A stretch of DNA of 8,654 nt from Thermococcus paralvinellae (lineage in GTDB: Archaea; Methanobacteriota_B; Thermococci; Thermococcales; Thermococcaceae), in NCBI GenBank assembly GCA_015662175.1, contig DQUR01000032.1, positions 1 through 8,654 on the forward strand. Reading direction: 5' to 3'. Positions 1 through 8,654 of this stretch are shown piece after piece. Made by a program: the position numbers and the translations under genes. The notes under the pieces were generated by a model. The model was given only the letters and a program-made list of their open reading frames with translations. It had not been told where the DNA came from and made no database searches. Positions within the stretch are counted from its first letter, which is position 1. Every line of letters begins with the position of its first letter.

Positions 1-92
1 ATGGAGCCACATGCAACCACCTTCCGTTAACCTAACCCCGTGCACTTTCGGAACAACCCTTTTCACGCTTCTGTAAATTTGGGGCTCTTTTG
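1..92. repeat. Left arm of a 92-bp inverted repeat (inverted copy of UbiD coding sequence)
   Basis: Bases 1-92 are the reverse complement of 228-319. Base i pairs with base 320-i, with a single mismatch at base 70 (T; the partner 250 predicts C). Identity stops sharply at base 93 but has not ended at base 1, so the repeat may continue beyond the window. In the UbiD reading frame this arm is nonsense and contains a stop at 74-76. The genuine UbiD frame resumes at about 89-92. The arm therefore replaces the upstream part of the gene rather than being inserted intergenic sequence. Confidence 0.95.
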
Positions 93-631
93 TTGACATA
101 ACCGGCACCTATGATCACGTCAGAAAGCAGCCCGTTGTGGTCTTTGAGAGGATGTACCACGTTAGCGGTCCAATTTTCCATGCCCTTTTGCCTGGAGGTT
201 ATGAGCACTACATGCTCATGGGTCTTCCAAAAGAGCCCCAAATTTACAGGAGCGTGAAAAGGGTTGTTCCGAAAGTGCACGGGGTTAGGTTAACGGAAGG
301 TGGTTGCATGTGGCTCCATGCGGTGGTGAGCATAACAAAACAACATGAAGGGGACGGCAAAAACGCAATTCTTGCAGCATTTTCTGGACATCCGTCATTA
401 AAGCACGTTGTGGTTGTTGATGAGGATGTAAACATTTACGACGACAGGGAAGTGGAGTGGGCCATAGCGACGAGATTTCAAGCTGATAGGGACCTGGTGA
501 TAATTCCAAATGCAAGAGGCTCTTCCCTTGACCCTTCGGCTGAGAAAGGCCTGACAGCAAAGTGGGGCATTGACGCGACAAAGCCATTGGATAGAGGGGA
601 GGAGTTTGTGCGGGTGAAATTGGAAAACTAA
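89..631 (+). CDS. UbiD family decarboxylase, C-terminal part; 5' part displaced by an inverted repeat
   Basis: About 180 residues match the C-terminal part of UbiD-type decarboxylases, which use prenylated FMN for non-oxidative decarboxylation. Visible family landmarks are FVDITGTYD followed by RKQPVVV, then [35 protein letters not shown], and the acidic stretch [17 protein letters not shown]. Family members are roughly 400 residues or more, so well over half, including the N-terminal domain, is missing. Upstream of the Phe codon at 89 the frame runs into the inverted repeat and a stop at 74-76. The first in-frame ATG is at 137 with no convincing Shine-Dalgarno, so I treat the coding region as 5'-truncated rather than as a gene starting there. 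In archaea a UbiD homologue decarboxylates trans-anhydromevalonate 5-phosphate in the archaeal mevalonate pathway, which is a possible role, but the substrate cannot be read from this fragment. The gene is convergent with tRNA-Lys, 14 bp from the encoded CCA. Confidence 0.85.
228..319. repeat. Right arm of the 92-bp inverted repeat, inside the UbiD gene
   Basis: This is the native copy: it lies in frame within well-conserved UbiD coding sequence (residues around KEPQIY to GGCMWLH). Its reverse complement forms bases 1-92, with a 135-bp spacer between the arms. The one difference (base 250) would be synonymous if read in the sense frame (AGG versus AGA, Arg). Confidence 0.95.
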
Positions 632-645
632 ATTTAATGAAAAGC

Positions 646-723
646 TGGCGGGCCGGGGGGGATTTGAACCCCCGACCTGCGGATTAAGAGTCCGCCGCTC
701 TAACCAGGCTAAGCTACCGGCCC
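646..723 (-). tRNA. tRNA-Lys(CTT), CCA encoded
   Basis: Read on the minus strand, the 7-bp acceptor stem GGGCCGG pairs with CCGGCCC. It is followed by discriminator G (649) and encoded CCA (648-646). The anticodon stem GCGGA/TCCGC encloses the loop CTCTTAA, giving anticodon CTT (reads AAG, Lys). The T arm GGGGG/CCCCC encloses TTCAAAT. No intron is visible. The gene is divergent from tRNA-Leu and convergent with the UbiD gene. A short T4 tract lies just past the 3' end (complement of 640-643) and may help termination. Confidence 0.97.
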
Positions 724-750
724 GTGTTCAAAATCATTGGGAGTTGAGCA

Positions 751-767
751 TTTTATAAATTTTTCGG
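751..767 (-). promoter_or_regulatory. BRE/TATA promoter of tRNA-Lys
   Basis: On the minus strand the sequence reads CCGAAAA then ATTTATAAAA (760-751), a textbook archaeal BRE plus TATA box. Its centre is about 32 bp from the tRNA 5' end, which predicts initiation a few bases before the mature tRNA. Confidence 0.8.
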
Positions 768-778
768 TAATTGGAGAT

Positions 779-793
779 AGAAAACTTTATAAG
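779..793 (+). promoter_or_regulatory. BRE/TATA promoter of tRNA-Leu
   Basis: AGAAAAC (779-785) followed by TTTATAAG (786-793) fits a BRE/TATA pair. It sits about 33 bp before the tRNA at 823, so transcription should start around 815 with a short leader. It shares the 99-bp spacer with the oppositely oriented tRNA-Lys promoter. Confidence 0.75.
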
Positions 794-822
794 CCAATTT
801 TAACCGAAATATTTTGGCCTGA

Positions 823-910
823 GCGGGGGTTGCCGAGCCTGGTCAAAGGCGCGGGATTGAGGGTCCCGTCCCGTAGGGGTTCCGGGGTTCAAATCCCCGC
901 CCCCGCACCA
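823..910 (+). tRNA. tRNA-Leu(GAG), class II with long variable arm, CCA encoded
   Basis: Acceptor stem GCGGGGG (823-829) pairs with CCCCCGC (900-906), followed by discriminator A and encoded CCA (908-910). The anticodon stem CGGGA/TCCCG encloses TTGAGGG, giving anticodon GAG (reads CTC/CTT, Leu). A long variable arm (TCCC-GTA-GGGG) marks it as a class II tRNA. The T arm is CGGGG-TTCAAAT-CCCCG. Its 3' end is only 4 bp from the stop codon of the convergent tyrS gene. Confidence 0.97.
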
Positions 911-914
911 ATTC

Positions 915-2042
915 TCACCTCGTAATCCTAACTTCCTTCATTATCTCTAAAGGCTCTGGATGCTTTTCAAAGTACTCCCTAATTGGCTTGAGGAGTTCTA
1001 TCAGGTATTCGGCAACTGCATTCTTCAGGTCTAGCGGGTGCAGTTTTCCTTCAGCGAAGTCCCTTTTGAGTTCTTCAAACGTTGTGTATGTTACGTCACC
1101 ACCGAACTTAGCAGGTCTGTGTATGGTGAATTCAGCTGGCTCCTCGCGGAAGATTATGTGCTCCGCCCAATCCAGGACGGGATTGTATTTGACCTCCCTC
1201 ACAGGACAGAACGCCTTCCTGAGCTTCTGCCTGATTTCCTCAGGAGTGTCATGAATGAAAACAGCCGAATAAGGCTTTGATTTGCTCATCTTCATTGACG
1301 CCTTTATCTCCTTGAATTCCTCCTCGCTCTCAATCGGCCACTTGGGTGGTTCCTGCAGACCAAGTAGAAGGTGGTGGTGAACCGCAACGGGTTTGTACCT
1401 CTTTCCATTCCAGAGCAGGGGATGATACTTCAGCTTTTCGGCAACCTCAATTGCGATCACATGAGCCTTCCTCTGATCCATTCCAGCGTGTGCAATGTTG
1501 ACTCCCTGATAGAATATGTCCGCCACCTGCATTACCGGGTAAATCAGCTTTGCAAAATCTATGGCCTCACCCATCTGACGGCCCATGATTGTGATGGAGC
1601 GCATAACCCTGCTCAGGGTAACGTTCTTTGATATGTCAATGACGGTCTGCCAGTAGTCACCTTTTTCCAAAATCTCACTTGCCAGGACAAACTCCACCTT
1701 CTCTGGATCACCGCCCATGACCTTGATGCTCTGTTTCATACCCTCCTTAAAATACGTTAAAGCAACTTTTTGAATGGTTTCAAGGTCTCCACCGAGTTTA
1801 TCATTAATCCAGCTGTGCCAGTCCGCTAAAAATATCCTCGTTTTTATGCCCGCCTTCTGGAAGTCAGCGATCTTTGCACCCGCCATCAATCCGGTGCCAA
1901 GGTGAATGTAACCGCTTATTTCAAACCCTATGTAATGCTGGAGGGGAACCCCTGTTTCTAGAAGTTGCCTCAGGTTTTCTACGGTCAATACTTCCTCGGT
2001 CGGCTTTCTTGTTATCAGCTCTATCCTTTTTTCTATGTCCAT
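915..2042 (-). CDS. tyrS: Tyrosyl-tRNA synthetase (archaeal type)
   Basis: A 375-residue class I aminoacyl-tRNA synthetase that charges tRNA-Tyr in the cytoplasm. Sequence landmarks are the HIGH-type motif HLGT at residues 47-50 in YIGFEISGYIHLGT, and the KMSKS loop at 251-255. The tyrosine-pocket signature IYPVMQVAD followed by GMDQRK supplies Tyr168, Gln172, Asp175 and Gln190. Together with Tyr37 these correspond to the tyrosine-binding residues known in the Methanocaldococcus enzyme. The length and the compact C-terminal anticodon-binding domain match the archaeal/eukaryotic subclass, not the bacterial one with an S4 domain. The start is ATG at 2042, preceded by GGTGGTG. The gene is divergent from rps15 and convergent with tRNA-Leu, so read-through transcription would be antisense to that tRNA. 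A small hairpin (2060-2076) lies in its leader. Confidence 0.97.
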   Translation of the reverse strand: MDIEKRIELITRKPTEEVLTVENLRQLLETGVPLQHYIGFEISGYIHLGTGLMAGAKIADFQKAGIKTRIFLADWHSWINDKLGGDLETIQKVALTYFKEGMKQSIKVMGGDPEKVEFVLASEILEKGDYWQTVIDISKNVTLSRVMRSITIMGRQMGEAIDFAKLIYPVMQVADIFYQGVNIAHAGMDQRKAHVIAIEVAEKLKYHPLLWNGKRYKPVAVHHHLLLGLQEPPKWPIESEEEFKEIKASMKMSKSKPYSAVFIHDTPEEIRQKLRKAFCPVREVKYNPVLDWAEHIIFREEPAEFTIHRPAKFGGDVTYTTFEELKRDFAEGKLHPLDLKNAVAEYLIELLKPIREYFEKHPEPLEIMKEVRITR

Positions 2043-2059
2043 TCACACCACCAAGCCAA

Positions 2060-2076
2060 AAAGGATGTTATCCTTT
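2060..2076 (-). promoter_or_regulatory. Perfect 7-bp hairpin/inverted repeat upstream of tyrS
   Basis: AAAGGAT-GTT-ATCCTTT is a perfect inverted repeat with a 3-nt loop, ending 17 bp before the tyrS start codon and just upstream of its Shine-Dalgarno. Upstream TATA-like candidates on the minus strand are weak (CTTAAAT near 2091-2097, or CATATTTT further up). I therefore cannot tell whether it is an RNA hairpin in the leader or a protein operator at the start site. Confidence 0.45.
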
Positions 2077-2137
2077 AAGGCATTTACGCATTTAAGAGAT
2101 TGAAAAAAATATGCGGAATTGAAAACGGTGACACTGG

Positions 2138-2153
2138 GCAAAACTTTTTAAAC
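2138..2153 (+). promoter_or_regulatory. BRE/TATA promoter of the rps15 operon
   Basis: GCAAAAC (2138-2144) followed by TTTTTAAAC (2145-2153) fits an archaeal BRE/TATA. The predicted start is near 2175, giving an rps15 leader of about 55-60 nt that contains the hairpin at 2189-2216. It is likely the main promoter for the downstream ribosomal/replication genes. Confidence 0.65.
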
Positions 2154-2188
2154 ACACCCCTGCTATTCCAATTGGCTATGTCATAAGG

Positions 2189-2216
2189 GGCGGCTGGCGA
2201 GGGGCTGGCCGTCGCC
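2189..2216 (+). promoter_or_regulatory. GC-rich leader hairpin before rps15
   Basis: In the predicted rps15 leader, GGCGGC (2189-2194) pairs with GTCGCC (2211-2216; one G-U pair). After a bulged T2195, GGC (2196-2198) pairs with GCC (2208-2210), leaving a 9-nt loop. The stem ends 2 nt before the Shine-Dalgarno GGAGGTG (2219-2225). Such a GC-rich island in otherwise AT-rich intergenic DNA suggests a selected RNA structure. Autogenous control by S15, as in bacteria, is a guess. Confidence 0.5.
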
Positions 2217-2231
2217 AAGGAGGTGTTGTGC

Positions 2232-2687
2232 ATGGCAAGGATACATGCGAGAAAGAGGGGTAAGTCTGGATCAAAGAGACCCCCAAGGACTGCTCCGCCA
2301 ACCTGGGTGGAATACACAGCTGAGGAAGTTGAGAACCTCGTCATAAAGCTCAGGAAAGAAGGTTACAGCACGGCCATGATAGGGACCATTCTCAGGGACC
2401 AGTACGGAATTCCAAGCGTCAAGCTGATTACAGGCAAAAAGATAACCAAGATTCTCGAAGAGAACGGACTAGCTCCAGAGCTCCCGGAGGACCTGATGTT
2501 TCTCATCAAGAGAGCGGTTAACTTAAGGAGGCACCTTGAAGAACACCCCAAGGATAAACACTCAAGAAAGGGACTTCAGCTCATTGAGAGCAAGATCAGG
2601 AGACTTGTAAAATACTACAGAAGGACAGGAAAGCTTCCGGCAAAGTGGAGATACGATCCAGAACAGGCAAAGCTCCTAGTTCGCTGA
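2232..2687 (+). CDS. rps15: 30S ribosomal protein S15 (archaeal S15p/S13e)
   Basis: A 151-residue small-subunit ribosomal protein. The core S15 fold is clear: a [15 protein letters not shown] segment (residues ~101-115) with the conserved DxHS-RGL pattern, followed by the basic helix [15 protein letters not shown]. The N-terminal extension [18 protein letters not shown] is typical of archaeal and eukaryotic members, which are longer than the ~89-residue bacterial S15. I start at ATG 2232 because GGAGGTG (2219-2225) lies 6 nt upstream. The in-frame GTG at 2223 falls inside that ribosome binding site. S15 binds the central domain of 16S rRNA early in 30S assembly. It is the first gene of a same-strand run with gan, pcc1 and rps3ae. 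Confidence 0.97.
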
Positions 2688-2705
2688 TTTTTCGCTTCAC
2701 TTTTT
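2688..2705 (+). terminator. Possible T-tract terminator after rps15
   Basis: Two T5 tracts (2688-2692 and 2701-2705) directly follow the rps15 stop codon in a pyrimidine-rich gap. Archaeal intrinsic termination relies on such T-runs. Here it could partially terminate and set a lower level of gan relative to rps15. No stem-loop is seen. Confidence 0.4.
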
Positions 2706-2723
2706 CCTTCTTAAGGTGGTATG

Positions 2724-4139
2724 ATGGACAAGGGTGGCTTTTTGGAAAAGGTCAGAGAGGGTGCTGAACTGATAAAGATGCACGTGGAGTTAGGGCACAC
2801 CATACGCATTATTTCCCACAGAGATGCCGATGGGATAACTGCAGGGGCTATCCTTGCAAAGGCAATTGCACGGGAGGGAGGGAACTTTCATTTAAGCATC
2901 GTTAAGCAGCTAAGCGAAGATCTAATTAAGGAACTTGCGGATGAAAAGCAGAAAATCTATGTTTTCAGCGACTTGGGTAGCGGGTCAATAAGACTAATTG
3001 AGAAATACCTTAGCAATGCAAGCGTTGTGATAGCCGATCACCATCCGCCGGAGGATGGCGAAATTAAAAGCGACAGCCATATTCTGGTTAACCCCACACA
3101 GTTTGGGGCCAATAGCGTCAGGGATTTAAGCGGTTCTGGAGTTGCTTATTTTGTTGCAAGGGAGATTAACGAGAAAAACAGGGATTTGAGCTATCTGGCC
3201 TTAGTCGGTGCCGTTGGGGACATGCAGGAAATAGATGGGCAATTCCACGGCATGAATCTGGACATAATAGCTGATGCAAAGGAACTTGACCTGATTGAGA
3301 TAAGGAAGGAAATTAGACTTTACGGAAGGGAAACGAGAAAGCTCTATCAGATGCTCGCCTATGCCACCAATCCGGAACTTCCCGAGATTACCGGAGACGA
3401 GAGAAAGGCCATCGAATTTCTCAGGGCTAAAGGATTTGATCCCGATATGTACTACTGGCAGCTCAGGGAGGAGGAGAAGAAGAGGTTTAACGATTTAGTT
3501 GTAATCCATCTGATTAAACATGGTGCTGGAAAGGATACAATTGACAGGATAATCGGCGATGTTGTTTTGATAAAGCTTTACAGGGAAGGCGATCCAAGGC
3601 ATGAGGCGAGGGAATTCGCAACCCTGCTGAATGCAACTGGAAGGTTGAACGCCGGAACCCTAGGAGTGGCCATATGTTTGGGAGACGAAGATGCATTTAG
3701 GGCTGCGCTAAAACTGGTTGACGACTACAAGAGGGAGCAGATAGAAGCGAGGAAATATCTAATACAGAACTGGAACAGCACGGTTATTGAAAGGGAGAAT
3801 GTTTATGTCTTCTACGCAGGCAAGAATATCAGGGATACCCTCGTTGGTATAGCGGCAAACATGGCTATAAGCTCCAGGTTAGCAAACCCGGAGAAGCCGG
3901 TGATCGTTTTAGCAGATGGTGAAGAGGATGGACTCATCAAAGGCTCGGCAAGAACCACTGAAAAAGCTCTGGCCAAGGGGTACCACCTTGGAGAGGCATT
4001 GCGGAAGGTTGCTGAGATTATTGGTGGAGAAGGCGGAGGTCACGCGATAGCCGCTGGTATCAGGTTTCCGAAGGACAAGCTGGAAGAATTTGCGGAGCTT
4101 ATCAACAAAGCGCTGGGGGAGCAGTTAAATGGAAATTAA
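2724..4139 (+). CDS. gan: GAN, RecJ-like DHH/DHHA1 single-strand exonuclease of the archaeal replisome
   Basis: A 471-residue DHH-superfamily nuclease. In the DHH domain the metal-binding motifs are ISHRDADG (residues 31-37), FSDLGSG (81-87), ADHHPP (104-109) and VGAVGDMQ (161-168). The C-terminal DHHA1 domain carries the GGGHAIAAG motif (~437-445) that contacts nucleic acid. It closely resembles my memory of the Thermococcus GAN (GINS-associated nuclease). That is the 5'-3' ssDNA exonuclease that joins MCM and GINS in the archaeal CMG and is the counterpart of eukaryotic Cdc45. All DHH metal ligands look intact, so it should be active. ATG 2724 is preferred over the adjacent ATG 2721, because GGTGGT (2715-2720) abuts 2721 and homologues begin MDK; the choice changes one residue only. 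It overlaps pcc1 by 11 bp. Confidence 0.93.
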
Positions 4140-4374
4140 AGCCAGGGCAGAGATAATCTGGCACTATGGGGATGAAAAGACCGCTGAGGCAATAGCGAGA
4201 GCTGTAGATGTTGATAATCTAAACCTTCCAAAAAATTTAAAGGTTAAAACTCACTGGGAAGGTTGTAAGGTCATAACAAAAGTTAAATACTCCGGTGGGA
4301 TTGAAAGCCTTATAGTGGCTTTGGATGATTTGGTGTTTTCAATCAAGATCGCCGAGGATAGTTTAAAACTGTGA
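4129..4374 (+). CDS. pcc1: KEOPS complex subunit Pcc1
   Basis: An 81-residue protein matching the small dimerising Pcc1/Cgi121-type KEOPS subunit in size and pattern. It has an alternating beta-alpha-beta layout, with strand [11 protein letters not shown], the [21 protein letters not shown] hairpin and the C-terminal helix [25 protein letters not shown] (Kae1-Bud32-Cgi121-Pcc1) makes N6-threonylcarbamoyladenosine at position 37 of ANN-decoding tRNAs in the cytoplasm. Pcc1 dimerises the complex by binding Kae1. The start ATG lies inside the end of gan (11-bp overlap, different frame), which implies translational coupling. It is 18 bp from rps3ae. The tRNA-Lys encoded in this window belongs to the class of tRNAs modified by this complex. 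Confidence 0.9.
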
Positions 4375-4392
4375 AAATTGGGAGGTGTTAAG

Positions 4393-4995
4393 ATGGCCAG
4401 AGCCAATCCAAGAAAAAAGGCCACTACCACAAGGGATAAGTGGAAGCTTAAGCAATGGTATATTGTTTATGCTCCCGAGTTTTTCGGGAGTCAGGAGATT
4501 GGTTTAACACCGGCGGATGATCCTGAAAAGGTCAAGGGAAGGGTCATAGAGACCACCCTCAAGGACCTAACCGGTGACTTTACAAAGGGTCACGTTAAGC
4601 TTTACTTCCAGATTTATGATGTCAAAGGCCAGAACGCTTACACAAAGTTCAAAGGACACAAGCTTGCAAGGAGCTACATCAGAAGTTTAGTGAGAAGGAG
4701 AACAACAAGAATTGACGGCATCTTTAATGTCACGACAAAAGACGGCTACAAGCTTAGGGTTATGGGGATGGTCATTGCAATAAGAAGGATCCAGACAAGC
4801 CAGGAGAGAGCAATTAGAGAGATCATGAGAAACATCATATACAAAAAGGCTGAGGAGTTACCTTTCACGCAGTTTGTCCTTGAGGCGGTTACGGGTAAGA
4901 TGGCCGCTGAGATCGCCAAGGAAGCGAAGAAGATATATCCACTCAAGAGGGCAGAGATCAGAAAGATTAAGGTTCTCGCTGAGCCGGAGATTTGA
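4393..4995 (+). CDS. rps3ae: 30S ribosomal protein S3Ae
   Basis: A 200-residue protein of the archaeal/eukaryotic S3Ae (eS1) family, absent from bacteria. Recognisable stretches are the basic N-terminus [53 protein letters not shown] and a basic C-terminal tail. The start is ATG 4393 with GGAGGTG (4381-4387) 5 nt upstream. The in-frame TTG at 4378 precedes that site and is rejected. eS1 sits on the platform near the mRNA exit on the 30S subunit. It lies 18 bp after pcc1 and is probably co-transcribed. Confidence 0.96.
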
Positions 4996-5061
4996 TTTCC
5001 CCTTCTATTTCTCCTTTAAGTTGCTTCTGCCCTGACCTTCAGTTCTTTCCAGGTGGTGGTG

Positions 5062-6114
5062 ATGAAGTTTTTGATAAAGACCCAGAGGGGAATGGAAGCT
5101 GTTGCTGGCAATTACATAAGGGAATCTCTGGGAGATGCTAAGGTCTGGATCTCGCCTCAGGGATACTCCGGATTGGTTTTAGTTGAAACTGATGATAAAA
5201 ATGCAAAAGAGAAAATTCGGGGAATTCCCGAAGTTGAAAGGGTTATTGAAGTCCTATATGAGGTTCCCGCAAGGATTGAGGATATCCTGAACGTTGCCGA
5301 AAATCTTGCCGGGTTCATCAAGGAGGGAGAAACCTTCGCTGTCAAAACAAAGAGGAGGGGAAAGCACGACTTTACAAGTGTTGATGTAAATGTTCAGCTT
5401 GGAGCGAAGTTGAAAGAACTCACAAATGCTGATGTTGATTTGAGCTTTCCAGATAAAGTCATTTTGGTTGAGATAATTGGTGATAGGGCTTATATTTCAG
5501 TTGCCGGGAAAGAGGAGTGGAGAAAATACCCCCCGGAAAAGGTGGATGCAAGGAAGCTTTTCAAAAAAGTGTGCATAGTTCAGATGCCGTACTGGGGTGA
5601 CCACAAAGCCTGCAGGGCCTTTGGTGAGAAGATTGGCAGGGCAGCCCAGGCATTTGAGGTTAAGGAACTGATAATAGCACCGAAGGAAAAGATTGACGGT
5701 TACGAACTCATGGAGTTCCTTAGGGGTGTAAAAGTTGGACAGGAATCAAGGTATCAGATTCAGAGAGAAGCCTATCCCTGGAAAATTGAGAAGGTTCCCG
5801 TGTATGTATGGGATCTATATCAGGTGATAAGGGACAAAAGGAGGAACAAGCGTTTGATTATAATTACGGATCCCAAGGGGCACACCCTGGCCAAAGTCAA
5901 GGATGAGCTGGCAAGGGACATGCACCACGCAAAGGAGGTCGTTGTTTTCATCGGCTCAAGGGAGGGCATTCCAAGGGGACTGTTCAGGTTCGCGGATTAT
6001 GTCGTTGATTTGGCCCCCTATATGACGTTTGCAACGGAGCATGGAATTCCCGGCACGCTGATAGCGCTGTGGACGATTTATGAGGAAAAGCTCAGGGAAA
6101 ATGAAAAGGAGTAA
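5062..6114 (+). CDS. THUMP-SPOUT predicted RNA methyltransferase (COG1818 type)
   Basis: A 350-residue protein with an N-terminal ferredoxin-like/THUMP RNA-binding region (roughly residues 1-160, including FAVKTKRRGKHDF, VQLGAKL and VDLSFPDKVILVEI). A C-terminal SPOUT-like domain follows (about 168-340). The knot-like end reads VVVFIGSREGIPRGLFRFADY (residues ~293-313) and then FATEHGIPGTL, as expected for an S-adenosylmethionine-binding trefoil knot. This domain pair is known in archaea as a predicted RNA methylase, probably acting on tRNA through THUMP recognition of the acceptor end. The exact target is not readable from sequence. ATG 5062 follows a GTG-rich GGTGGTG stretch (5052-5058) that acts as the ribosome binding site; the upstream GTG codons are not preferred. 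The 66-bp gap after rps3ae is pyrimidine-rich with no clear TATA, so it may be co-transcribed or separately initiated. Confidence 0.87.
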   Translation: MKFLIKTQRGMEAVAGNYIRESLGDAKVWISPQGYSGLVLVETDDKNAKEKIRGIPEVERVIEVLYEVPARIEDILNVAENLAGFIKEGETFAVKTKRRGKHDFTSVDVNVQLGAKLKELTNADVDLSFPDKVILVEIIGDRAYISVAGKEEWRKYPPEKVDARKLFKKVCIVQMPYWGDHKACRAFGEKIGRAAQAFEVKELIIAPKEKIDGYELMEFLRGVKVGQESRYQIQREAYPWKIEKVPVYVWDLYQVIRDKRRNKRLIIITDPKGHTLAKVKDELARDMHHAKEVVVFIGSREGIPRGLFRFADYVVDLAPYMTFATEHGIPGTLIALWTIYEEKLRENEKE

Positions 6115-6168
6115 TCAGCCCCTAAGGTCCTCATCACCCTTCAGCAATCCGCCTTCTCATCACACCTT
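6113..6168 (-). ncRNA. C/D box sRNA (double-guide 2'-O-methylation guide)
   Basis: Read on the minus strand, in order: box C GTGATGA (6163-6157), 12-nt guide GAAGGCGGATTG (6156-6145), box D' CTGA (6144-6141), 3-nt spacer AGG, box C' GTGATGA (6137-6131), 12-nt guide GGACCTTAGGGG (6130-6119), box D CTGA (6118-6115). All four boxes match consensus (RUGAUGA/CUGA). Both guides are the 12 nt expected for archaeal L7Ae-Nop5-fibrillarin particles. By the fifth-nucleotide rule, the predicted methylated bases are the C in CAAUC*CGCCUUC and the U in CCCCU*AAGGUCC. I could not assign either target from memory. It fills the gap between two convergent genes and starts about 12 nt past the DUF92 stop, so it may be processed from that operon's 3' UTR. 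The exact ends are estimated. Confidence 0.9.
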
Positions 6169-6175
6169 TCAATTT

Positions 6176-6889
6176 TCATACGAGGGCTAAAAATATTATC
6201 GCTCCAGCCATTCCACCGGCAAGGGTTGCAATAAAATTTGTACCATTATTGTCAACAATGCCCTTATCTTCCAGGGTAGCCCCCACAACGCTGTCAATGT
6301 TGCATCCGATAAATCCCCCCACTGTGGTCGCCAAGAACATCTGCCACTTAAAGGAAGTTACAGCGGTGGCGATGATTCCTATTACACTTGCCCCAACCAA
6401 TGCAAAGACCTCTCCCTGAAGGGAAATAGCTCCATTGGAACCTGGTTTAACGGGTTTAAGGTTTGTAATCATTTTGGGACTCTTCCCAAAAACCTTACCC
6501 AGCTCACTTGCCAGAGTATCTGCATTTGCCGTGGCTATTGAGGCAAAGGTTGCGGCCCATAAGAAATCCTGCTTTGTGAGGTATTCTAAAATCACAAAAA
6601 TTGAGGTAGCCAAGCCATTTCCAATAACATTTTTCCAGCCCCTAACACCTTCTTGTTCCTGCGCAATCCCAGTTTTAAGTTTCTCATGGTATTTATACTT
6701 CGTGGACAGAACTCCCATAACCACAAAAATCAGCATAGCCAGAAATGGGTACACGCCACCAAACCGCAGTATAAGAATTCCAAGGATAATTGCCACAATG
6801 CTGCCTTTTTTGTCTAATGCTTGGCTTACATATGCCAACCATCCAAACACGAAAATTATGACTATTTGAATCACTGAAATTACCGCCAT
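6176..6889 (-). CDS. DUF92/TMEM19-family integral membrane protein
   Basis: A 237-residue hydrophobic protein with about six membrane segments. They lie roughly at residues 2-22, 30-63 (probably two), 90-104, 158-178 and 185-237 (broken by a polar loop). Conserved family motifs are ATANADTLASELG (120-131), KPGSNGAIS (148-156) and GCNIDSVVGATLE (195-207), the last two in loops between helices. DUF92 includes TMEM19 and the plant protein VTE6, which acts on phytyl phosphate; an isoprenoid-phosphate kinase-like role is therefore conceivable but unproven here. I choose ATG 6889 because GGTGA (6899-6895) lies 5 nt upstream. The longer GTG start at 6913 has no Shine-Dalgarno and would add 8 polar residues. 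It is the last gene of the minus-strand run, 42 bp after the Lrp gene, and the C/D sRNA follows it directly. Confidence 0.88.
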   Translation of the reverse strand: MAVISVIQIVIIFVFGWLAYVSQALDKKGSIVAIILGILILRFGGVYPFLAMLIFVVMGVLSTKYKYHEKLKTGIAQEQEGVRGWKNVIGNGLATSIFVILEYLTKQDFLWAATFASIATANADTLASELGKVFGKSPKMITNLKPVKPGSNGAISLQGEVFALVGASVIGIIATAVTSFKWQMFLATTVGGFIGCNIDSVVGATLEDKGIVDNNGTNFIATLAGGMAGAIIFLALV

Positions 6890-6931
6890 TGCTGTCACCT
6901 TTGTGTTGTCCACTTGCAGCCATTGGAAGGA

Positions 6932-7426
6932 TTAAATGACCTCAAACTTAACAATTTCTGTAATAAATGTTATGTCCATTTTGTCAATACCTTCTATCCT
7001 CTTGGAAATCTCATGGATTTTCTTTTCAATGTCCCTTATCTCTTTTGGAGCTACCAAGTGAATTACAAGATTATGTGAACCGATTGCCCTCTCAATAATT
7101 TTAATATCAGGGTCATCCTTCAGTTTCTCAATAATTTCATCTAAAGAAATACCGGGTTTGAGAGTTATTCCCAATATCACGTATACATACCCAAGTCTCT
7201 CAAAATCTGGAATTATGGTATACTTTTTAATAACCCCCATCTTTTCAAGCTTTTCTAGTCTTCTGGAGATCCTCTGTCTCGTTGTTTTCAACTGTTCTGC
7301 CAGCTCCTTGTATGTAAGCCTTGAGTTTTTTGCCAGGAGATTAATAAGCTGTATGTCTACTTTATCTATTTTAGTCCTCATAAATGGTTTTCCAGTTTTA
7401 CCTAATAAAAATCTTTCGAACCTCAT
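6932..7426 (-). CDS. Lrp/AsnC family transcriptional regulator
   Basis: A 164-residue regulator. The N-terminal winged helix-turn-helix runs over about residues 20-70 (KIDKVDIQLINLLAKNSRLT, then YKELAEQLKTTRQRISRRLEK), followed by the linker GVIKKYTIIPDFERLGY. The C-terminal RAM ligand-binding and oligomerisation domain includes GITLKPGISLDEI and the AIGSHNLVIHLVA strand. Start ATG 7426 overlaps the mazG stop as ATGA and has GGTGGGG (7439-7433) 6 nt upstream, a strong coupled start. A start at ATG 7381 would give a 149-residue protein closer to the usual Lrp length and lacks a good ribosome binding site, but cannot be excluded. The 15 extra N-terminal residues are basic (RFERFLLGKTGKPF). Its position inside an operon with another regulator suggests local control. 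The effector is unknown. Confidence 0.9.
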   Translation of the reverse strand: MRFERFLLGKTGKPFMRTKIDKVDIQLINLLAKNSRLTYKELAEQLKTTRQRISRRLEKLEKMGVIKKYTIIPDFERLGYVYVILGITLKPGISLDEIIEKLKDDPDIKIIERAIGSHNLVIHLVAPKEIRDIEKKIHEISKRIEGIDKMDITFITEIVKFEVI

Positions 7427-7719
7427 GATATTCCCCACCGAAACCTGTCCCTGTTCCTATACTTTGCTATGGAATTTAGAAGGGCCCTTTCAACATCAAT
7501 CCCGTAATAGTTAGCAATGCAGAAAAGTGAAAACAATAAGTCCCCAAACTCTTCCTCCAATGTTTTCACGTCACCTTTACCTTTAACTTTTTCAAGTTTG
7601 AGCATTTCATCCGAGAGTTCTCCCAACTCTTCAACGACAGCCGCTAGCATTTCAAATGGTTTCCAATATCCTCCAAACTCTTTGATTAGTTTATCAACCT
7701 CTTTTTGGAGCCTATTCAT
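7423..7719 (-). CDS. MazG-like nucleotide pyrophosphohydrolase
   Basis: A 98-residue single-domain all-alpha NTP pyrophosphatase of the MazG superfamily. The metal-binding signature is intact: EExxE as E30-E31-L-G-E34, followed by ExxD as E57-F-G-D60, with the helix DLLFSLFCIANYYGI behind it. The C-terminal KYRNRDRF is also typical of the family. Such enzymes hydrolyse NTPs/dNTPs to NMP and PPi, often to clear non-canonical nucleotides. Substrate preference cannot be inferred. The start ATG 7719 has GGTGAG 5 nt upstream. It lies 28 bp after the ArsR-type gene and shares an ATGA overlap with the Lrp gene, which strongly implies one transcript. Confidence 0.92.
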   Translation of the reverse strand: MNRLQKEVDKLIKEFGGYWKPFEMLAAVVEELGELSDEMLKLEKVKGKGDVKTLEEEFGDLLFSLFCIANYYGIDVERALLNSIAKYRNRDRFRWGIS

Positions 7720-7747
7720 TGAAACTCACCGGAGGATCGTGGTAGCG

Positions 7748-8125
7748 TTAATTATACTCTTTCTCTAAAAGCTTAAGGTATTTTCTAAGTTTCTCAACGT
7801 TAGTCCTATAAAACCTCAGCTTTCCTTCCCTTCTCTCATGTAATAAATTCATGTTCTTGAGGGAGCGAAGATGATGACTTATTAGAGTCTGATCCTCTCC
7901 AAGTGCTTGTGAAATTAGGCAAACACACATCCATCTGTTTTTTACCATTTTCAGTATTTTGTATCTAATCGGATTGGAGACGAGCTTTAAAAACCTTAAC
8001 AGCTCTTCATTAGTTTCAATGTCAATATCTTCTTCCAAATCCATTATTTCACAGCTTTGAAGACATCTTTTTACAGTTTTCCTCTGCTTTTCGTTTAGCT
8101 TTTCAATAAGCTCCCTTATCTTCAC
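7748..8125 (-). CDS. ArsR-family winged-helix transcriptional regulator
   Basis: A 125-residue protein. An N-terminal extension of about 40 mostly charged residues contains Cys21 and Cys25 (RCLQSCEIM). A winged helix-turn-helix follows (about 40-110), with FLKLVSNPIRYKILKMV, then WMCVCLISQALGEDQTLISHHL (recognition helix), and the wing HERREGKLRFYRT. The Cys67-Val-Cys69 pair sits where metal-sensing ArsR/SmtB members carry their CVC motif, so thiol or metal sensing is possible. The start is GTG 8125 with GGTGAT (8136-8131) 5 nt upstream; an overlapping ATG at 8132 is out of frame. It is the first gene of the minus-strand operon and is divergent from the SDH protease, so it probably binds the shared 170-bp spacer. 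The true ligand is unknown. Confidence 0.88.
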   Translation of the reverse strand: MKIRELIEKLNEKQRKTVKRCLQSCEIMDLEEDIDIETNEELLRFLKLVSNPIRYKILKMVKNRWMCVCLISQALGEDQTLISHHLRSLKNMNLLHERREGKLRFYRTNVEKLRKYLKLLEKEYN

Positions 8126-8157
8126 GGCGCATCACCTCTCAATAATAAAGCTCAATG

Positions 8158-8171
8158 CTTATAAGATTTTC
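8158..8171 (-). promoter_or_regulatory. BRE/TATA promoter of the ArsR-mazG-lrp-DUF92 operon
   Basis: On the minus strand GAAAAT (8171-8166) precedes CTTATAAG (8165-8158). The predicted start is near 8138, giving a leader of about 13 nt with the Shine-Dalgarno at its beginning. An imperfect palindrome, TTCA-TG-TGAA (8169-8178), overlaps the BRE and could be an operator for the regulator, at low confidence. Confidence 0.7.
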
Positions 8172-8205
8172 ATGTGAATTTCTTTTTGGCTTGAATGTTT
8201 AGTAA

Positions 8206-8221
8206 CCAAAAGTTTTAAAAA
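8206..8221 (+). promoter_or_regulatory. BRE/TATA promoter of the SDH protease gene
   Basis: CCAAAAG (8206-8212) followed by TTTTAAAAA (8213-8221) fits a BRE/TATA. The predicted start is around 8242, giving a leader of about 50 nt. A T7 run (8224-8230) lies between the TATA box and the expected start. The TATA is about 50 bp from the oppositely oriented arsR promoter. Confidence 0.65.
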
Positions 8222-8248
8222 CCTTTTTTTGTAATTATCTTTACGAAA

Positions 8249-8274
8249 CCTAGAAATATCAAACACAATCTAGG
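8249..8274. repeat. CCTAGA/TCTAGG inverted repeat in the SDH leader
   Basis: CCTAGA (8249-8254) and TCTAGG (8269-8274) are perfect 6-bp inverted arms separated by 14 bp. They lie just downstream of the predicted transcription start and 8 bp before the Shine-Dalgarno. This could be an operator for a dimeric repressor or a weak leader hairpin. Confidence 0.45.
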
Positions 8275-8295
8275 GATTAGCTGGAGGTGAATGAT

Positions 8296-8654
8296 TTGGA
8301 TCCTTTGAGTGGATTTTTTAGTTCGCTGATATGGTGGCTGCTTTTCCTGTATATACTGCTATGGCCACAAATGCAATACAGGCAACTTCAGCTGATGAGG
8401 GCAAGAATCCTTCAGAAATTAGCCAAGAAAAGGAACTCCACAGTAATAACAATGATCCACAGACAGGAAAGCATTGGGCTTTTTGGAATACCCTTCTATA
8501 AGTTCATCAGCATTGAAGACAGCGAAGAAATCTTGAGGGCTATAAGGATGGCTCCAAAGGATAAGCCAATTGATTTGATCATTCATACCCCCGGTGGATT
8601 GGTTTTAGCGGCAACCCAAATAGCAAAAGCACTGAAAGATCACCCAGCAGAAAC
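8296..8654 (+). CDS. SDH-family (ClpP-fold) membrane serine protease, 5' part
   Basis: The first 119 codons of a longer gene cut off by the window end. Residues 7-25 form one hydrophobic N-terminal anchor (FFSSLIWWLLFLYILLW). The cytosolic part follows with RNSTVITMIHRQE, the FGIPFYKFISIED segment and DLIIHTPGGLVLAA. The HTPGG at residues 97-101 corresponds to the substrate-binding PGG motif of ClpP-fold proteases. The catalytic serine (expected in a later SGG motif) lies beyond the window. This is the SDH/SppA-like family often paired with stomatin-like proteins in membrane quality control. The start is TTG 8296, because GGAGGTGA (8283-8290) is 5 nt upstream. The ATG at 8291 opens only a five-codon frame. 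Confidence 0.92.
   Translation, partial: MDPLSGFFSSLIWWLLFLYILLWPQMQYRQLQLMRARILQKLAKKRNSTVITMIHRQESIGLFGIPFYKFISIEDSEEILRAIRMAPKDKPIDLIIHTPGGLVLAATQIAKALKDHPAE

Follow-up and report, generated by a model that had tools for sequence, protein, structure and literature searches.

The 61 bp gap between two convergent genes of Thermococcus paralvinellae very probably holds a gene for a double-guide C/D box sRNA with two sites in the organism's own 23S rRNA, where the sRNA would direct 2′-O-methylation. The window, meaning the whole stretch of DNA analysed, comprises 8,654 nt (assembly GCA_015662175.1, contig DQUR01000032.1, positions 1 to 8,654) and comes from a MAG (genome G000) that is 75% complete and consists of 287 contigs. 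The sRNA gene lies on the minus strand at 6111..6168, an extent set by the match to our sequence model R1; the score of this match (60.8 bits, E 1e-16) is partly circular, the window being one of the 18 sequences used to build R1. Converging on it from the plus strand is a gene (5053..6114, stop codon 6112-6114) whose product is AF2226-like, with Pfam matches to THUMP and SPOUT_MTase_2 (PF14419, PF02926) that bear out the THUMP-SPOUT identity given in a preliminary description of this DNA. Directly upstream of the sRNA and on the same strand, so that the sRNA stands immediately behind it, is the gene of a DUF92 membrane protein (6176..6913, minus strand), assigned by Pfam (PF01940) and synteny. 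The size given earlier for the gap, 61 bp from the THUMP-SPOUT stop to the DUF92 end at 6176, is correct, as is the start of box D one base past that stop. Elsewhere in the window, positions 646-910 carry two tRNA genes, a minus-strand tRNA-Lys (ctt) and a plus-strand tRNA-Leu (gag).

Read along the minus strand from 6163 to 6115, the locus has the layout GTGATGA-12-CTGA-3-GTGATGA-12-CTGA, which occurs only once in the window. Scanning with consensus patterns places box C (GTGATGA) at 6163-6157, followed by the 12 nt D′ guide GAAGGCGGATTG (6156-6145), box D′ (CTGA, 6144-6141), the 3 nt D′-C′ spacer AGG (6140-6138), box C′ (GTGATGA, 6137-6131), the 12 nt D guide GGACCTTAGGGG (6130-6119) and box D (CTGA, 6118-6115), the last flush with the THUMP-SPOUT stop codon of the opposite strand. 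As first described, all four boxes are at consensus in the order C-D′-C′-D, with guides of 12 and 12 nt and a spacer of 3 nt. The arrangement has the hallmarks of archaeal C/D RNAs, namely RUGAUGA for C and C′, CUGA for D and D′, guides within about 10-13 nt and a short K-loop spacer. The earlier judgement that chance is a very unlikely origin also holds, the four-box pattern being absent from all 200 dinucleotide shuffles and all 3000 first-order resamples of the window. No single-strand folding signal was found for the window sRNA (z -1.16), with a z of 0.86 at locus L124; C/D RNAs are expected to lack such a signal.

The organism's own 23S gene is present as a 795-base 3′ part at a contig end (L149, contig C123), 98.5% identical to the 23S of a congener and found by a 301-base DNA query; an archaeal LSU covariance search had missed the truncated gene. 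It contains GCCCTAAGGTCG and GAATCCGCCGTAG, 27 nt apart. The D guide pairs with this 23S at positions 2-11, giving 10 bp (23S GCCCT*AAGGTCG, the asterisk following the predicted base), and the D′ guide pairs at positions 2-9 plus 11 from the box, with 8 contiguous bp (23S GAATC*CGCCGTA); both guides are mismatched at the position next to the box. Archaeal C/D guides are said, by Yang, Lin and Ye in 2016, to use at most about 10 pairs, a ceiling that the 10-bp pairing of the D guide closely fits. In RNA letters the D target is GCCCU*AAGGUCG, with a predicted site at U2383 in the numbering of the congener (L025), equivalent to E. coli G2286, and the D′ target is GAAUC*CGCCGUAG, with a predicted site at C2410, equivalent to E. 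coli C2313; the ends of the L025 23S used for numbering were taken from the Rfam match and the E. coli positions by alignment. The preliminary description had predicted both sites without assigning them to a target RNA, and its predicted bases, U and C, stand; the 23S does not contain its targets at their full length of 12 nt, as the outer guide bases mismatch.

With shuffled guides, 2 of 20000 trials against the congener's 23S plus a relative's 16S yielded sites of 10 bp and 8 bp no more than 100 nt apart. The 16S of a relative itself offered no credible site, its best contiguous runs being 7 bp for the D guide and 6 bp for the D′ guide; in the organism's own genome no 16S was found by covariance model, the same approach that missed the truncated 23S. 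By the helix names we assume here, both predicted sites fall in the part of domain V of the 23S that spans H81-H84. Genes for fibrillarin (336 bits) and Nop5 (Nop, 254 bits) are adjacent on contig C240 of the same genome. The text of PMC4644070 sets a criterion of nine pairs for guides, relaxed for double guides by one mismatch, and the window D′ guide, with 8 contiguous pairs, is below the nine and passes only under that relaxation. The methylation hotspots named there are helices 35, 35a, 61, 68-71 and 90-93, and neither 2286 nor 2313 appears in the main text of that paper, in which the numbering is that of its own alignment.

The reading as a C/D box sRNA, borne out by these targets in the organism's own 23S, is also borne out by conservation in the family. 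Behind the THUMP relative, the sRNA is present in 17 of 18 Thermococcales loci encoding such a protein, the exception (L016) having a different sequence there, and these 17 loci together with the window supplied the 18 sequences of R1. Run with Infernal's stricter filters on, R1 matches 83 of 94 Thermococcaceae genomes, up to 18 of them by construction as sequences in the model, and these span 6 of 6 genera. Matches were obtained in 69 of the 74 Thermococcaceae genomes of at least 90% completeness and at most 5% contamination, and in none of 21 genomes from other families of the class (83 of 115 overall); nine of the 11 Thermococcaceae genomes lacking a match are drafts. Two of the 83 matches (G060 and G090) are weak and probably represent other C/D RNAs or fragments. 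The remaining 81 comprise 80 that parse as the identical four-box RNA type and a divergent copy in G111 (36.7 bits). Among the 80, 35 have CTGA as box D′ and 45 have CCGA, 47 have GTGAGGA as box C′, and the D′-C′ spacer is 3 nt in all except one (79/80).

Guides and targets are preserved together across the family. Real 23S matches were available from 66 genomes, i.e. 67 minus G103, in which the sole hit was the sRNA itself, and 65 of these 23S regions, including that of the window's own genome, contain both target cores. Over the compared stretch 64 of the 65 target regions are letter-identical, bar one variable base preceding it, and the other (G069) differs at one base, position 12 of the D′ target. 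The genome without both cores is G111; with an identity of only 84%, its 23S piece appears to be of foreign origin. All 61 genomes holding both parts show contiguous pairing over the fifth base, of 9-12 bp with the D guide and 7-12 bp with the D′ guide. Over the 80 RNAs, positions 3-11 of the D guide and positions 2, 5 and 8 of the D′ guide are invariant, the other D′ positions of 2-9 plus 11 vary in one or two RNAs, and positions 1 and 12 of the guides each show three or four bases. Since recognition of the RNAs relied on GACCTTAGG and GCGGAT, constancy at those letters and pairing floors of 9 (D) and about 6 (D′) are built in. The comparison is nevertheless informative: only one of 81 strong matches failed recognition, pairing extends past the recognised letters, and the free variation at positions 1 and 12 is independent of them.

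Of the 61 genomes, 38 have a longer D′ pairing than the window, 22 (window included) have 8 bp and one has 7 bp. Taken with a weak terminal stem and the 75% completeness of the MAG, the shortness of this pairing might suggest that the C/D gene is decaying or silent in T. paralvinellae; with four consensus boxes and intact guide cores in the window, and the same unchanged cores in the sRNAs of its closest relatives (L002 and L003), we regard such decay as highly improbable and an intact guide RNA gene as the better account.

We also considered descent of the sRNA from a reversed 23S copy. In the orthologues at L153, L154 and L155 blastn aligns 38 nt with the 23S antisense strand, taking in the D′ box region that separates the guides. 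Such descent is not supported, the inter-guide likeness being equalled by 3.7% of 23S positions for the window and 8.2% for T. kodakarensis; the best of the 80 RNAs gives 0.13%, a value chosen after the fact.

The gene's neighbours differ between genomes. A same-strand DUF92 gene lies within 300 nt ahead of the sRNA in 75 of 80 genomes and is the more constant neighbour, while the sRNA is antisense behind THUMP in 67 and stands between both in 64. The close abutment of box D on the THUMP stop in the window, and the overlap that a minus-strand RNA would have with the 3′ end of the THUMP-SPOUT mRNA, could indicate an antisense regulator or transcription-end element of that converging mRNA, and the 67 antisense arrangements would agree with this. 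The probability of such a role appears very small, given that 13 of 80 genomes keep the RNA with no THUMP beside it, that the distance to the THUMP stop ranges from 1 to 61 nt (67 genomes measured), and that what is conserved is the pairing with 23S. Eight of the 13 belong to group g2, which we take to be Pyrococcus, and at all eight of these loci DUF92 stays with no adjoining THUMP gene. In two more genomes (G010 and G014 of group g5; loci L129 and L130) the sRNA is found behind an S3Ae gene instead of DUF92, so either the gene moved or its neighbours did. The other exceptions for DUF92 are G009, where it is about 0.4 kb away, G120, where none was found in a 3.2-kb stretch, and G114, where the sRNA is at a contig end. 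Co-evolution of the sRNA with THUMP-SPOUT was likewise considered, and with those 13 genomes in view we claim no functional tie.

The same-strand position close behind DUF92 in 75 genomes would also suit an L7Ae-binding K-turn carried by the 3′ UTR of the DUF92 mRNA, with no separate guide RNA, and translational regulation by L7Ae in archaea is announced in the title of PMC5539422. For a K-turn alone, however, the second C′/D′ motif and two guides matching 23S would be superfluous, and the RNA is located elsewhere in G010 and G014 and at a distance in G009, with DUF92 missing from the G120 stretch; we consider a UTR element scarcely credible. As the sRNA persists through these changes of neighbour, it behaves as a free-standing guide RNA gene and not as part of the THUMP gene.

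The preliminary description had looked to relatives that lose the boxes and keep the flanking genes as the case against an sRNA; one such loss was found, in G084, against 64 genomes with the sRNA between both neighbours. In this closed genome of 1.52 Mb (L158, contig C1) THUMP-SPOUT (1029670-1030710) and DUF92 lie side by side with a much shorter gap, R1 has no match genome-wide, the best score with filters off being 4.5 bits at the THUMP-DUF92 locus, and the 23S target (L185) is unchanged. G084 has lost the sRNA and kept both neighbours and the target, and is thus a natural knock-out in which the sRNA is dispensable. Altogether 14 genomes have no clear sRNA, 11 without a match and three with weak or divergent ones. 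A THUMP-SPOUT orthologue is kept in three of the 14, namely G084, G060, where the sequence downstream of it differs, and G111, which holds the divergent sRNA copy; ten others have weaker, paralogue-like THUMP-SPOUT matches and one has none. A second closed genome, G022 (L161; 1,845,800 bp), gives no sRNA match and has an intact 23S target; its THUMP-SPOUT match is weak and paralogue-like, with no clear orthologue.

The analysis itself establishes the boxes and their spacing, the conservation, and guides complementary to the own 23S, a match repeated in 60 other genomes with both parts; together these suggest the following course. The sRNA would be transcribed from the minus strand, and its C/D and C′/D′ boxes would form a K-turn and a K-loop bound by L7Ae. 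A particle of fibrillarin, Nop5 and L7Ae would then be the 2′-O-methylation machinery at both 23S sites, with fibrillarin presumably modifying the nucleotide that pairs with the fifth base of each guide, counted from box D or D′. The predicted products are Um and Cm at the bases that correspond to E. coli G2286 and C2313, respectively. With both sites in the H81-H84 stretch of domain V, pairing may also aid folding there. A doubtful extension of the methylation guide is an additional role as a folding clamp for H81-H84, in which guides antisense and collinear to their sites, with a separation of 27 nt in the 23S and 26 nt in the sRNA, would let one RNA grip the stretch at both ends and keep it open until neighbouring ribosomal parts arrive. 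As G084 has the target without the sRNA, any such clamping step can proceed without it. For the guide function, that same unchanged target makes the natural knock-out helpful in asking whether both predicted methylations matter.

As a terminal stem, only two G-U pairs are predicted outside boxes C and D in the window, while among the 80 RNAs at least four contiguous pairs, mostly GGCG/CGCC, occur in 54 and fewer in 25, box C being unrecognised in one. G009 has a different pairing sequence, TAAA/TTTA, suggesting that the stem has been retained despite changed bases in at least one lineage. According to the text of PMC9014305, at least three terminal pairs are possible in 21 of 24 circularised RNAs of T. 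kodakarensis, and 16 of 17 non-circular C/D sRNAs of that organism were judged to form at most two. Set against these counts, the two G-U pairs make the circular form raised in the preliminary description doubtful for the window's organism, in which the sRNA is likely linear by analogy. The T. kodakarensis orthologue has a four-pair stem, yet Table 1 of PMC9014305 lists no circular junction at its place, which counts against a simple stem rule.

The genome used for that orthologue (G073; 1100953-1101014, minus strand) is very likely T. kodakarensis: its 23S lies inside the operon range that PMC9014305 gives for this species, and C/D RNAs parse at two of the three published places fetched (sR34 and sR46), the sR41/sR42 stretch being unparsed with the pattern used. 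A further C/D sRNA of G073, at 1103573-1103621, fits the published sR34/Tko-sR35 (1103565-1103626) of the Tko-sR series (PMC4247193, PMC9014305). The orthologue falls between Tko-sR33 (1053770) and Tko-sR35 (1103625), and our guess is that it is Tko-sR34. C/D sRNAs number some 60 in Thermococcales, with 59 in P. abyssi (text of PMC3124441) and 61 putative ones in T. kodakarensis (text of PMC9014305). The present sRNA is probably already in the Pyrococcus or T. kodakarensis lists. What is new here is its 23S target, its family-wide distribution, its independence from THUMP and one natural loss.

A conserved sRNA goes uncalled by Rfam in the scanned loci, and its predicted pair of sites can be checked in cultured organisms. 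The best Rfam match of the window copy is to RF00095 (snoPyro_CD) at 33 bits, below the gathering cut-off of 45, and the copy in G012, at 245977-246032 on the plus strand of a genome that we take to be P. abyssi, reaches 35.4. In the eight g2 genomes RF00095 gives 26.9-35.8 bits in seven and is unlisted in one (L110). No Rfam family calls the sRNA in the 11 of 18 relatives scanned at curated cut-offs, no further family reaches its cut-off on any copy scanned (window, 11 relatives, eight g2 genomes), and the sRNA family seems to be absent from Rfam 15. Six of the 11 scanned relatives (L002, L003, L008, L014, L015 and L019) have another C/D sRNA, sR45 (RF01274), in this neighbourhood, with Rfam scores of 57.8-73.2 bits (cut-off 40); it is a separate gene some 3-5 kb off, beyond the DUF92 side. 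Short of the 45-bit cut-off that sets it apart from RF00095, the sRNA shares with the Pyrococcus and Thermococcus sR families (RF00095 and the sR series) their box sequences, size and double-guide layout, as well as the 3-nt D′-C′ spacer and a pair of rRNA sites separated by less than 100 nt, and is an ordinary, well-conserved member of this known kind.
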